This document shows, one piece after another, positions 4,923 to 62,302 of a DNA stretch of 64,000 nucleotides. The notes beneath the pieces are model-generated. The model searched no databases. It was not told the origin of the DNA and saw only the letters and a program-made list of their open reading frames with translations. This stretch comes from Thiotrichaceae bacterium (GTDB taxonomy: Bacteria > Pseudomonadota > Gammaproteobacteria > Thiotrichales > Thiotrichaceae), in contig JALSLX010000058.1 in NCBI GenBank assembly GCA_026988095.1, forward strand, positions 1-64,000, written 5' to 3'. Every line of letters begins with the position of its first letter. The stretch's first letter is position 1. A program made the translations under genes and the position numbers.

Positions 4923-5127
4923 CCATCCCCCCTCTTTTTTGCTTTTTTGTACGCCCTAGGCGTTAAACGGCAAGCTCTAATAATTGAGTTAGTCGTTTTA
5001 AAAAGCAAAACGATAAGCTCACTAAAAGTATATCGCTACACCTTCCAAAGGAAGTGTCGATACTGCTTGAAGCATCGTATGCATCCCTTTTTAAGTACAA
5101 AACGTCGAAAAAGAGGGGGGGTGGTCT
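4923..5127. repeat. Composite palindromic repeat between ureD and ureA (family A arms with family B nested inside)
   Basis: CCATCCCCCCTCTTTTTTGCTTTTTTGTAC ... TAATTGAGTTAGTCGTTTTaaaaagcAAAACGATAAGCTCACTAAA ... GTACAAAACGTCGAAAAAGAGGGGGGGTGGTCT. Confidence 0.85.
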
Positions 5128-19492: not shown

Positions 19493-19563
19493 GCCACCCC
19501 CCCTCTTTTTCGATGATTTGTATCTTAAATTAATACAAATCACCGAAAAAGAGGGGGGGTGGC
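19493..19563. repeat. Palindromic repeat family A (C7CTCTTTTTCGATGATTTGTAT), inverted pair
   Basis: GCCACCCCCCCCTCTTTTTCGATGATTTGTAT-cttaaatta-ATACAAATCACCGAAAAAGAGGGGGGGTGGC. Confidence 0.95.
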
Positions 19564-26572: not shown

Positions 26573-26614
26573 CTACCCCCTCCCTAACCCTCCCCCTGCT
26601 AGGGAGAGGGGACT
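26573..26614. repeat. Palindromic repeat family D (CCCTCCCTAACCCTCCCCCTGCTAGGGAGAGGGG)
   Basis: Shared consensus with 834-882, 55493-55535, 55568-55611, 62257-62302. Confidence 0.8.
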
Positions 26615-27942: not shown

Positions 27943-28026
27943 TATAAAATCGCGAAAAACAGGGGGGGTGGGCTTATAAAAAGGGTGTTTTAAAGTCCAC
28001 CCCCCCTCTTTTTAGCTGTTTTGTAT
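27943..28026. repeat. Palindromic repeat family A, tail-to-tail pair
   Basis: GAAAAACAGGGGGGGTGGGCTTATAAAAAGGGTGTTTTAAAGTCCACCCCCCCTCTTTTTAGC. Confidence 0.85.
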
Positions 28027-40950: not shown

Positions 40951-41038
40951 CATACAAATCATCGAAAAAGAGGGGGGGGTGGCTTATAAAAGTACTATAT
41001 TTATAAGCCACCCCCCCTCTTTTTCGATGATTTGTATG
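40951..41038. repeat. Palindromic repeat family A, long near-perfect inverted repeat overlapping queA 3' end
   Basis: CATACAAATCATCGAAAAAGAGGGGGGGGTGGCTTATAAA-agtactata-TTTATAAGCCACCCCCCCTCTTTTTCGATGATTTGTATG. Confidence 0.97.
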
Positions 41039-42071
41039 TGTTTTTCGTTAAAAACATAGCATCGCCATAGCTAAAGAAGCGGTACTTCTTTGAAATTGCG
41101 TGCTTATAGCCTTGAATAATATTTTCATAACCTGAAAAAGCAGAAACTAACATCAATAAAGTAGATTCTGATAGGTGAAAGTTAGTCACCATCGCATCAA
41201 CAACATTAAACTCATAGCCTGGAGTAATAAAGAGTTTGGTATCAGCCATAAACGGCTGTAACGTACCTGTCTCTTTAGCCGCAGATTCTAAACTGCGTAC
41301 ACTTGTTGTGCCCACTGCAATCACTCTACCACCACGCGCTTTGCACGCATCAACTGCATCACAAACCTGCTGTTCAACCTCTACCCACTCAGCGTGCATT
41401 ACATGATCATCCAAATTATCAACGCTTACTGGCAAAAATGTACCCGCACCTACGTGCAAAGTTACCTGCGCGGTTGCTACACCTTTTTCTTTTATCTCTT
41501 GCAACAACTCATCGGTAAAATGTAAGCCTGCGGTTGGTGCGGCAACGGCACCAAGCTTTTTGGCAAATACAGTTTGATAGCGCTCTTTGTCTGCTTCGGT
41601 ATCCTCTCGCTCAATATACGGTGGCAAGGGGATATGACCATATTCTTCAAGTAATTCATAAACTGTACGTTTATGTAAGAAACGTATTTCGAATAAGCGA
41701 TCTTCACGCCCTATGACTTCTGCTTGCAAAACACCTTCGAGCAATAACTTTCCACCTGCTTTAGGTGATTTGTTAGCACGAACATGTGCGAGGATGCGAT
41801 GATCATCCAACACCCGCTCAACCATGACTTCGACTTTGCCACCGCTTTCTTTATTGCCCTGTAATCGCGCAGGAATAACTCGCGTGTTATTAAAAACAAG
41901 CAGATCATCTTTATGGATTAAATCTAAAATATCAGAAAATATTTTATCGTGGATAGTAGCTGGACTGGATTTGGCATCAAGGTACAACATTCTACTTGAT
42001 GTGCGCTCTTCTAGTGCTTCTTGAGCAATGAGTTCAGGAGGCAGTGAATATTTGAAATCACTTAGTTTCAT
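41001..42071 (-). CDS. queA: tRNA preQ1(34) S-adenosylmethionine ribosyltransferase-isomerase
   Basis: [36 protein letters not shown]-terminus [12 protein letters not shown] lies in repeat A. Confidence 0.97.
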
Positions 42072-42601: not shown

Positions 42602-42687
42602 TGGTGCCGGTGGTCGGAATCGAACCGACACTCCCAGAGGGAACAGGATTTTGAATCCAGCGCGTCTACCAATTCCGCCACACCGGC
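42602..42687 (-). tRNA. tRNA-Leu (anticodon CAA)
   Basis: GCCGGTGTGGCGGAATTGGTAGACGCGCTGGATTCAAAATCCTGTTCCCTCTGGGAGTGTCGGTTCGATTCCGACCACCGGCACCA; long variable arm, encoded CCA. Confidence 0.97.
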
Positions 42688-51659: not shown

Positions 51660-52994
51660 TTATTTGTGTAAATACGGAGACCATGCAGGCTCACGAACAT
51701 CGCCAGCGGGAGATGTTAAAAACTGTCTTGATTTTCCATTATCACTAACCACGGCTAAGGTATTTTGCCCATTGCGTAACGTGGTATAGGCAACCATTGC
51801 ACCGTTTGGTGCTAATGTTGGAGATTCATCTAAACGACCATTTGAGAGCATATTTTTACCCGACTCACTCATCGATTTAATCGCCACATGAAATGCACCA
51901 CGATTGCCGCTGATAAATGCTATTTTGTTATTCGCAATATCGGCAGCGCTATTATATTTACCATCAAAGGTTATGCGTTGAGCGTCACCACCGTTTGCGC
52001 TAATACGATATAGTTGTGGGCTTCCACCGCGATTTGAGGTAAAAATAATTGAACCTGTTCCATTCCAAGCTGGCTCAGTATCAATAGCACTTGAGTTTGT
52101 AATTCTTTTTAATGCGCCACTTTTTGTATTAATTGTATAAATTTCAGGATTACCATTAATAGACAAACTCATCGCAATACGTGAGCCATCGGGCGACCAT
52201 GCTGGCGCTCCATTAATACCTTCACGTGCGGAAATCAATCGCTTTGCGCCAGTGAAAATATTCTGTACATAAATTGCGGAAGTATTTTTTTCAAATGAAA
52301 CATACGCCAGTTCACTACCATCAGGTGACCATGCTGGCGACATGATAGGGCGACGTGAACTTAAAATAGATTGAGGATTATTTCCGTCAGAATCTGAAAT
52401 ATACAGCCTAAAGGTACGATTCTTACTCGTGCTATTGGTTACGGTGACATAAGCTAAACGTGTGTCAAAAGCACCTTTTCTGCGGGTAATTTTTTCATAG
52501 ATTAAGTCTGCTGCCTTATGTGCAGGGCGACGTGGATTTTCATTCGCGGTAATGGTGTAGTTTGTTTTTGCATTGTCTGTTGTGCTGACTAACTCAATAA
52601 ATAAACCACCGTTGCCATTGTCTTTACCACGCACGATATAGTCTGCAATATCTTGGTATGCACCTGCATTCAATGTTTCGCCGTAGGACGCTATGTTTGG
52701 TATTTTTGAACGATTAACTATGGTGAAGCGACCACTGCGCTTTAAATCTGCTTCAATTATACCGTTGTGCCCACCGGGAATTCCTGCTGAAATGTTAGCA
52801 ATATAGATAGGGATGCCATCATCTGATGTTTTTGATATATGCAGTTCTAATTCTGCATAGGTAGAAGAGCTCAAAAGTATAAAAATCACTGAAAACAGGG
52901 GTAAAAAGGCTTTTTTTATAGACCACCCCCCCCTTTTTTCGATGATTTGTGTTTTAGAGTTACTCACCTTGTCCATTTTATTTCCATTTCTCAT
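51660..52994 (-). CDS. tolB: Tol-Pal system beta-propeller TolB
   Basis: SPAWSPDGSELAYVSFE, GAPAWSPDGSRIAMSLS repeats; N-terminal extension encoded by repeat A. Confidence 0.97.
   Translation of the reverse strand: MRNGNKMDKVSNSKTQIIEKRGGWSIKKAFLPLFSVIFILLSSSTYAELELHISKTSDDGIPIYIANISAGIPGGHNGIIEADLKRSGRFTIVNRSKIPNIASYGETLNAGAYQDIADYIVRGKDNGNGGLFIELVSTTDNAKTNYTITANENPRRPAHKAADLIYEKITRRKGAFDTRLAYVTVTNSTSKNRTFRLYISDSDGNNPQSILSSRRPIMSPAWSPDGSELAYVSFEKNTSAIYVQNIFTGAKRLISAREGINGAPAWSPDGSRIAMSLSINGNPEIYTINTKSGALKRITNSSAIDTEPAWNGTGSIIFTSNRGGSPQLYRISANGGDAQRITFDGKYNSAADIANNKIAFISGNRGAFHVAIKSMSESGKNMLSNGRLDESPTLAPNGAMVAYTTLRNGQNTLAVVSDNGKSRQFLTSPAGDVREPAWSPYLHK
52921..52957. repeat. Palindromic repeat family A, single arm inside tolB 5' coding end
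   Basis: GACCACCCCCCCCTTTTTTCGATGATTTGTGTTTTAGAG. Confidence 0.9.
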
Positions 52995-53000
52995 AAGCTA

Positions 53001-54326
53001 TTAGTCCATAATAAATGTAATAGTTCGATCTGATTTATTAAAATTAAATTTACTTGGCGGTCTTGGCAGTGGTTCTGCTTGTTCAAAGGCATCTTTTACC
53101 GATGCACAAAATTCATCACTACCTGAGCAAGATAAAACCTTTATACCACTAGAAATATAGCCACTTGCAGATACCGTAATCTTAACTTTTGCTGACTTTC
53201 CGCTTGTTCCTGGAGGCGGATGCCAGCGTCGTTTTACGTGGCGCTGAATTTTGCTTCCCCATGATATCTGTGCGCCTCTTTTGGCTTTTACTAACGCCTC
53301 TTTGTTTGATGCAGCTTCTGCTGCGGCTTTCTTTCTAGCTTCTGCCGCGATTGCATCTGCCTTTTTCTTTTCTTGTGCTTCTTTCCATTTACGGTGATAT
53401 TCCGCTTTTTTTGCTGCTAGTTTTTCTGCAGCTTCTTTCTCTGCTTTTAGCTTTGCAGCTTTTATAGCCGCTGCTTTTTCTGCCGCCCTTTTCTTTGCTA
53501 GTCGTTCAGCCTCTTCTTTTTCGGCCTTGATCTTGGCTGCTCGTTCTTCTGCTTGCTTCTTTTCTTTGGCTTCTTTTTCCTTTGCTAAGCGTTTTGCTTT
53601 CTCTCGTTTTTTTCTTTCTTCTTTTTTCTTCGCGTTCTTTTTGGCTTGCGCATCCTTTATAGCTTGCTCATCTCTTTTAGCTTGTGCGTCCTTCTTTGCC
53701 TGTGCTTCTCTTTTCGCTTCTGCTATTTTCTTAGCCTTTTCTTCTGCTTTGCGTTTGGCTTCTTTTTCTGTCTTTTCTTTCGCAAGCGCCTCTTCCTTCT
53801 GCTTTGCTTTTTCTACTATTTTTTGTTCCTCGGCTTTACGTTCTTGTTCTGCCTTTTCTGCTTGCTTCTCTTTTTCTCGCTTTGCTTTTTCCTGTTCGGT
53901 TTTCTTTTGTTCGGCTAACTTTTGATCTGCTAGCTTTTGATCTGCTAGCTTTTTTTTCGCCCGTGCTTGTTCAAGTAATCTCTTTTCGGTGGCTTCTTTT
54001 ATTTTAAGTGCAGCCTCTTGTCTTGCAATTGTTGCTAACTGTTGTTGTTCTTGCTTTTTTTCTATAGCTTCTGCGGCTTTTATTGATTCCTCAGACGGCT
54101 CAGGCTCCACTATTTGTTTTTCAGGCTCCTTTTCAGTATTGCCTATTTTTGTAGGTAGCTCTAATGCTTCGGCGTTAGGTAATATGATAGAAACAGGAAT
54201 TCCAGCTTCTGCCATCTCTGGCTTTTCTGTCCAATCAAAACTCAGTACAAAAAGCCCAACAATAAGCACGTGAAATAAGATTGCACCTATCATTGCCATG
54301 GGATGTCTTAAAAATATTTTTATCAT
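53001..54326 (-). CDS. tolA: Cell envelope integrity protein TolA
   Basis: N-terminal TM, very long Lys/Glu/Ala helix, C-terminal TonB/TolA domain; operon position. Confidence 0.95.
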   Translation of the reverse strand: MIKIFLRHPMAMIGAILFHVLIVGLFVLSFDWTEKPEMAEAGIPVSIILPNAEALELPTKIGNTEKEPEKQIVEPEPSEESIKAAEAIEKKQEQQQLATIARQEAALKIKEATEKRLLEQARAKKKLADQKLADQKLAEQKKTEQEKAKREKEKQAEKAEQERKAEEQKIVEKAKQKEEALAKEKTEKEAKRKAEEKAKKIAEAKREAQAKKDAQAKRDEQAIKDAQAKKNAKKKEERKKREKAKRLAKEKEAKEKKQAEERAAKIKAEKEEAERLAKKRAAEKAAAIKAAKLKAEKEAAEKLAAKKAEYHRKWKEAQEKKKADAIAAEARKKAAAEAASNKEALVKAKRGAQISWGSKIQRHVKRRWHPPPGTSGKSAKVKITVSASGYISSGIKVLSCSGSDEFCASVKDAFEQAEPLPRPPSKFNFNKSDRTITFIMD

Positions 54327-55492: not shown

Positions 55493-55611
55493 ACTCCCTC
55501 TACCTAGCAGGGGGAGGGCTGGGGAGGGGGTAGAAAGTTTAGAGAGCTATATTCTCTTCAAGCATTCCACCCCCCTCCCTAACCCTCCCCCCCTGCTAGG
55601 TGGAGGGGACT
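55493..55611. repeat. Two inverted family-D palindromes between tolQ and ybgC
   Basis: CTCCCTCTACCTAGCAGGGGGAGGGCTGGGGAGGGGG ... CCCCCCTCCCTAACCCTCCCCCCCTGCTAGGTGGAGGGGAC. Confidence 0.9.
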
Positions 55612-58507: not shown

Positions 58508-58583
58508 TACCACCCCCCCTCTTTTTCGATGATTTGTACGTTATTTAGAACACAAATCATCGAAAAAGAGGGGGGGTGGTCTA
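58508..58583. repeat. Palindromic repeat family A, head-to-head pair
   Basis: ACCACCCCCCCTCTTTTTCGATGATTTGTacgttatttagaacACAAATCATCGAAAAAGAGGGGGGGTGGT. Confidence 0.95.
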
Positions 58584-62256: not shown

Positions 62257-62302
62257 GTTCCCTCTCTCCAACTCTCTCCCTGCTAGGGAGAGAGGGCTAA
62301 AA
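62257..62302. repeat. Palindromic repeat family D copy
   Basis: AGTTCCCTCTCTCCAACTCTCTCCCTGCTAGGGAGAGAGGGCT. Confidence 0.85.

Follow-up and report, generated by a model that had tools for sequence, protein, structure and literature searches.

The TolB precursor encoded in the DNA analysed here (the window, a stretch of 64,000 nucleotides) carries in its N-terminal region a piece of a repeat found throughout the genome, which raises the question of how a DNA repeat came to write part of an exported protein. An earlier note on this DNA had proposed the capture of a mobile palindrome, in the manner of Rickettsia palindromic elements (RPEs). We examined the repeat in the genome of the window (G000, a MAG of 2.26 Mb in 167 contigs) and in congeners (numbered from G001); the species that carry it are uncultured marine bacteria resembling Cocleimonas. 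The tolB half-site is probably one copy of a genus-wide, dialect-forming DNA motif with several hundred sites per genome, ancestral at its position and rewritten in place.

A repeat arm in the TolB signal region

The open reading frame at 51660-52994 (minus strand, 444 aa at its longest) encodes TolB, with matches to TIGR02800, PD40 and TolB_N. Alignment to the TIGR02800 model (E = 2e-119) begins only at residue 40, and the named relatives of the protein are from Cocleimonas and Leucothrix; tolA lies upstream (53001-54326). The arm, ACAAATCATCGAAAAAAGGGGGGGGTGG, occupies 52923-52950 on the minus strand as a single 28-nt copy, in frame between the likely start codon and the hydrophobic core, and contributes T-QIIEKRGGW to the n-region. 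The earlier note had read this peptide as ..SNSKTQIIEKRGGWSIKKAFLPL.. at the 5' coding end of tolB, exactly as we find it.

The longest reading frame opens at 52994; TolB probably begins instead at the ATG at 52974-52976 (MDKV.., giving 438 aa), which is favoured by the GGAAA upstream of it and by its alignment with the MNK[IV] start of G002 and G010. From this ATG, the n-region is MDKVSNSKTQIIEKRGGWSIKKAF, about 24 residues with a net charge of about +4, and so is unusually long and charged, as had been predicted. TolB signal peptides measure about 24 aa in several congeners without the arm versus 36-44 aa in arm carriers.

It is very improbable that TolB starts downstream of the arm, leaving the arm outside the translated precursor. 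The idea draws on G002, in which an in-frame TTG directly past the motif would yield a normal short signal peptide. Against it, the only starts remaining 3' of the arm in G000, GTG and TTG, fall within the hydrophobic core, no in-frame ATG, GTG or TTG past the arm leaves a usable signal in G000, G010, or G007, and the start codons that precede the arm can be aligned among G000, G002, and G010. Since there is no usable downstream start, export of TolB in G000 requires that the arm be translated, and the arm copy is translated sequence in any TolB able to be exported.

The long n-region probably has no function of its own and is simply tolerated. The G000 tolB copy departs from its own genome's consensus by a GAG to AGG change, and the resulting replacement of Glu by Arg would suit a positively charged signal n-region. 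The RNA of the arm region folded no better than shuffled sequences (z = +1.0) and formed no hairpin. A run of eight G in the coding sequence of the arm (52926-52933) is a possible slippage site, at which slippage would frameshift TolB.

The repeat family in the genome and the window

The 28-mer occurs 284 times in the G000 MAG with at most three mismatches (136 copies on one strand and 148 on the other), whereas the reversed control 28-mer occurs 0 times. In the window, the 19-nt core was found 11 times at the same tolerance, against 0.00 expected by chance. The core can be written A5-N2-G6/7-N-TG[G/T]; an A tract precedes it, and it is surrounded by A/T tracts. A lone arm is not a palindrome; palindromes arise only from two arms placed head to head or tail to tail. 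In these inverted pairs, the arms are near-identical and the loops are unrelated from pair to pair, and many arms are single. Within pairs, spacings of about 35 nt and of about 46 nt are preferred, a difference of one helical turn.

Inverted pairs in the window lie at 19494-19562 (-/+), 27953-28015 (+/-), 40951-41038 (+/-), and 58510-58579 (-/+, intergenic). G007 has a copy at the junction of 27953-28015 as well (L169), in its own dialect, and the junction holding the arm core at 5106-5124 (plus strand), with a weaker copy at 4923-4941 (minus strand), is also occupied in G010. The pair at 40951-41038 follows queA: the QueA frame (41001-42071, minus strand) reads into it with its C-terminal tail, which is extra sequence because the QueA family models end at residue 341-344. 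The frame and peptide of this copy differ from those in tolB, in agreement with the earlier note, whose claim that the repeat supplies protein sequence to two genes also stands and extends to the further genes described below.

As RNA, inverted pairs have folding energies of -55 to -66 kcal/mol, the pair after queA reaching -66 kcal/mol (z = -16.5). We rejected bidirectional termination as a general function: of the 34 inverted pairs within the first 420 kb of G000, just 6 show the A-G-loop-C-T order. A known RNA family was likewise set aside, as 40-60 kb of the window matches only a tRNA, and so was carriage by viruses, the viral contigs having no exact match. The tRNA gene (Rfam tRNA, 59 bits) is at 42605-42687, minus strand. 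The window also contains an unrelated second repeat family, REP-like in appearance (CCCCCTCCCTAACCCTCCCCCTGCTAGGGAGAGGG-like), at 839-877, 26576-26614, 55573-55611, and 62260-62298.

A probably ancestral tolB site written in species dialects

The tolB genes of G002 (MNKITNKSKIVKKGGGW), G010 (MNKISYKEKIYKKRGGW), and G007 (MIDDRQSEKSQKKWGGV) also carry the arm, matching G000 in its codon (+/-1) and frame, and it is absent from tolB in seven congeners (G001, G003, G004, G005, G008, G009, and G011). A recent insertion in G000 only is ruled out by these three further carriers. The shared codon and frame indicate that the tolB copy is ancestral to four species and was not captured in a single lineage. 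A single gain fits the TolB tree, in which, however, the carriers are not resolved as a clade. The earlier note named an ancestral, conserved N-terminus as evidence against its reading, and half of this applies: the position is ancestral, but the letters are not conserved.

The letters follow the species. The consensus is TACAAATCATCGAAAAAGAGGGGGGGTGG in G000, TAAAAAATNTNAAAAAAAGGGGGGATGG-GTAT in G010, AAAAATATATAAAAAACAGGGGGGATGG-GTAT in G002, and GGAGAAAAGGGCAAAAAAGTGGGGGGGTGT-ACTTTT in G007, the sisters G002 and G010 having near-identical dialects. A strict pattern had made congeners appear to lack the repeat, a result that was overturned once other dialects were searched: G003, G004, G008, G009, and G011 have 456-769 copies each of a GTGGGGGGGTGT dialect (pattern AAAAGTGGGGGGGTGT[AC][CT]TT, at most three mismatches). 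Copy number varies widely among congeners, with 163 copies in G007 and, in another count, 213 in G011.

In leave-one-out assignment over four species, copies were returned to their own dialect in 194 of 213, 69 of 88, 83 of 86, and 87 of 96 cases. The G000 tolB arm scores 58.0 with the G000 dialect versus at most 22.2 with those of the other three species. More generally, the own dialect scores best for the copies in tolB, mnmH, an NDUFAF7-like gene, and DNA polymerase II, with the exception of the G002 tolB copy, which scores slightly better with the dialect of its sister G010.

Motif copies in other genes and at shared junctions

Over the four species, we found 43 copies in coding sequence (frames of at least 150 aa or with homologues). 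These use three reading frames and share no common peptide, and the coding strand is the G-rich strand in 34 of them (P = 2e-4). In mnmH, the motif lies just before VLYCFRGG in G000, G007, G009, G004, and G011 (L277-L286). In the NDUFAF7-like gene, it precedes [VI]LELGAG at a shared position (L287-L296), with a slightly different offset within the loop between G007/G011 and G002/G010. DNA polymerase II carries an in-frame motif at a shared position (L233 8629-11064; L096 6947-9298). An EpmA-like gene also contains an in-frame motif (L097 8182-9246 and L095 310-1290).

Some shared coding sites hold the motif without any net insertion. The mnmH sites of G008 and G003 differ by substitutions only (CCGGGGGGTGTCC versus CCTAATGGTGTGC), and the NDUFAF7-like proteins of G002 and G010, which contain the motif, are nevertheless shorter there than that of G001. 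Part of the motif's tail is already present in species that lack the motif, both in mnmH (GGTGTGCTTT in G003) and in the NDUFAF7-like gene (TGTATTTT in G001). Net gains near the motif length do occur elsewhere (+11 aa in the EpmA-like gene of G010, +16 aa at L116, and +12 to +20 aa in the TolB signal), and given the gains of 11-16 aa, insertion may be a second route to motif copies.

Orthologous intergenic junctions are co-occupied far above chance, including those with gaps of at least 100 nt. Counting junctions occupied in both genomes, in the first only, in the second only, and in neither, G000 and G010 gave 5/0/5/34 (P = 2e-4), G000 and G007 gave 4/2/4/44 (P = 0.003), and the pooled junctions with gaps of at least 100 nt gave 10/3/6/43 (P = 1.5e-5); the loci were picked for containing copies, which biases the absolute frequencies, and the association is measured within loci.

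The shared tolB site, the copies written in their own dialects, and the same pattern at junctions and in at least three other genes lead us to favour in-place rewriting over fresh capture of the RPE type. The earlier comparison with a captured palindrome is not supported, given a site orthologous in four species, copies in the dialect of their own genome, some shared coding sites that show no net insertion, a single 28-nt arm, no conserved peptide, and no REP-type transposase accompanying the family.

Phased A/T tracts around the copies

In G000 and G007 (L097-L116, L197-L256), A/T content around the copies follows a 10.4-10.6 bp period that is phase-locked to the motif, with a power of 0.47 versus a control maximum of 0.013. 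The phasing spans at least 150 bp on either side, its amplitude declining over about 200 bp (from 0.18 to 0.03 over 250 bp), and reaches into flanking genes. It is equally strong at copies embedded in coding sequence (0.166 +/- 0.022, n = 11) and at single copies. G002 and G010 lack it despite having as many copies.

At tolB, the 60 nt following the arm (52863-52922, minus strand) consist of phased T tracts that encode the hydrophobic core (..SIKKAFLPLFSVIFILLSSS..). Their correlation with the genome-wide G000 flank profile (r = 0.53) was equalled by 0 of 6,595 overlapping hydrophobic control windows, and the in-phase amplitude was significant (P = 0.0013). These nucleotides are in the G000 phase, so the Phe, Leu, and Ile codons of the signal core are also phased T tracts. 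We considered and rejected the idea that the core codons retain the remains of another, inverted arm: the phased T tracts account better for the G000 match (score 12, P = 0.001-0.009), and no match was convincing in G002, G010, or G007.

Strand polarity, competence, and transposases

The G-rich strand follows GC skew in G002 (49 to 21), and strand polarity is absent or weak in G000, G007, and G010. A list of G003 copies on contig C1, selected by match quality, hints at a possible replichore polarity: its 14 entries beyond 630 kb all share one strand, and those before that point are mixed (9 to 11).

G000 encodes the type IV pilus secretin PilQ, and G007 a minor pilin of the ComP_DUS family, a Pfam family that is not known to be specific to uptake receptors. 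A search of 46% of the genome turned up no ComEC, DprA, or ComEA. RAYT genes (Y1_Tnp) are absent from G007 and G011, both of which bear the repeat, and only remnants are present in G000. A REP family driven by a RAYT was rejected, as the repeat is not tracked by one. One IS200-like Y1 transposase remnant with an internal stop (L069 1501-1638, G000 C139) lies about 130 nt from a repeat-A copy.

Origin and maintenance of the motif

In the history that best fits these observations, the motif would have arrived at the 5' end of tolB a single time, in an ancestor shared by G000, G007, G002, and G010. The entry site would have been permissive, since a peptide such as KKRGGW, being hydrophilic and basic, is tolerated in a Sec n-region. 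Afterwards, the tolB DNA would have been rewritten as the dialect changed, much as DNA uptake sequences accumulated by drive settle in permissive regions of proteins. The force maintaining the motif may be biased uptake or a DNA-wrapping protein. Our likeliest candidate, held tentatively, is biased recombination or uptake of motif-bearing DNA; selection by a protein that binds and wraps DNA is the main alternative, which is possible but rather doubtful.

Two rival accounts of the whole family must be weighed. A mobile palindromic element of the RPE, REP, or MITE type might have inserted the arm in tolB and elsewhere, the shared sites being permissive hot spots struck repeatedly by each lineage's active version. 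Common inverted pairs, the net lengthening by 11-16 aa of certain coding copies, the offsets in the NDUFAF7 loop, and the variable copy number would all suit such an element. Nevertheless, we find it unlikely, because it must place four tolB copies at one codon (+/-1) and in one frame, and because the loops between arms are unconserved, many arms stand alone, some motifs have formed by substitution only, A/T phasing continues into flanking genes, and no RAYT accompanies the 163 copies of G007 or the 213 of G011.

Alternatively, the motif could be a chromosome-organising site, at which a protein binds the G-rich core and the DNA wraps or curves, with selection keeping the core and the phased tracts and dialects following the protein. 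The phase-locked periodicity, its equal strength at coding-embedded copies, pair spacings one helical turn apart, and the skew-aligned G-rich strand of G002 all speak for this reading, which we still consider less than likely: G002 and G010 are unphased though equally rich in copies, no candidate protein was identified, and polarity is absent or weak in three genomes. In its broadest form, several hundred anchor motifs would phase-lock A/T tracts (10.4 bp, at least 150 bp on each side) into a sequence-encoded wrapping or curvature system with species dialects, dictating protein sequence in genes such as tolB; we regard this as conceivable, with the balance against it.

Under in-place rewriting, local protein sequence gives way to a DNA motif found genome-wide, in the TolB n-region and, in G000, in part of the hydrophobic core. 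A TolB signal sequence would then be written by a constraint at the DNA level and written again upon a change of dialect. If the motif is an uptake signal, the Thiotrichales would join the groups known to have dialect-forming uptake sequences; if proteins bind it, the phase-locked tracts would indicate a DNA-wrapping system not yet described.

Comparison with known systems

Translation of repeat DNA within proteins is already known, as are dialects in abundant motifs. In the literature searched, we found no description of the combination of a translated repeat, motif dialects, and phase-locked flanks, and none of repeats in Cocleimonas or transformation in Leucothrix. RPEs resemble this family in being translated in frame within unrelated genes, in several frames, but are palindromes of about 150 bp (PMC10969869) rather than single 28-nt arms, and here there is no common peptide and the orthologous sites are shared and rewritten between species. 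REP/BIME elements are likewise short, G-rich, mostly intergenic, and found in inverted pairs; unlike them, the motif unit is not itself a hairpin, and no RAYT tracks the family. MITEs differ in that here the interior between identical inverted arms is unconserved. The extended signal peptide region (ESPR) of autotransporters also places a long charged n-region before the Sec core, as in this TolB, but the two have no sequence relation, the TolB extension being derived from a genomic DNA motif.

The closest parallels are the DUS of Neisseriaceae, with their dialects, and the USS of Pasteurellaceae. To our knowledge, no uptake sequences have phase-locked tracts out to 150 bp, and the present motif differs from DUS/USS in its phasing over at least 150 bp, its greater length (17-29 nt), its lower density, and a possible strand polarity in one genome, uptake sequences not being strand-polar (PMC1939737). 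Both have copies in the hundreds on the two strands, dialects that differ by species, intergenic inverted pairs, depletion in coding DNA outside permissive stretches, and A/T tracts flanking a core that contains G; formation in place, at some sites, is a probable further likeness. The literature on DUS describes dialects, inverted pairs, coding sites that are permissive, and origin through point mutation (PMC3630211, PMC1939737), and the mnmH (G008/G003) and NDUFAF7-like (G002/G010 versus G001) sites fit such in-place substitution, with net gains at other sites.
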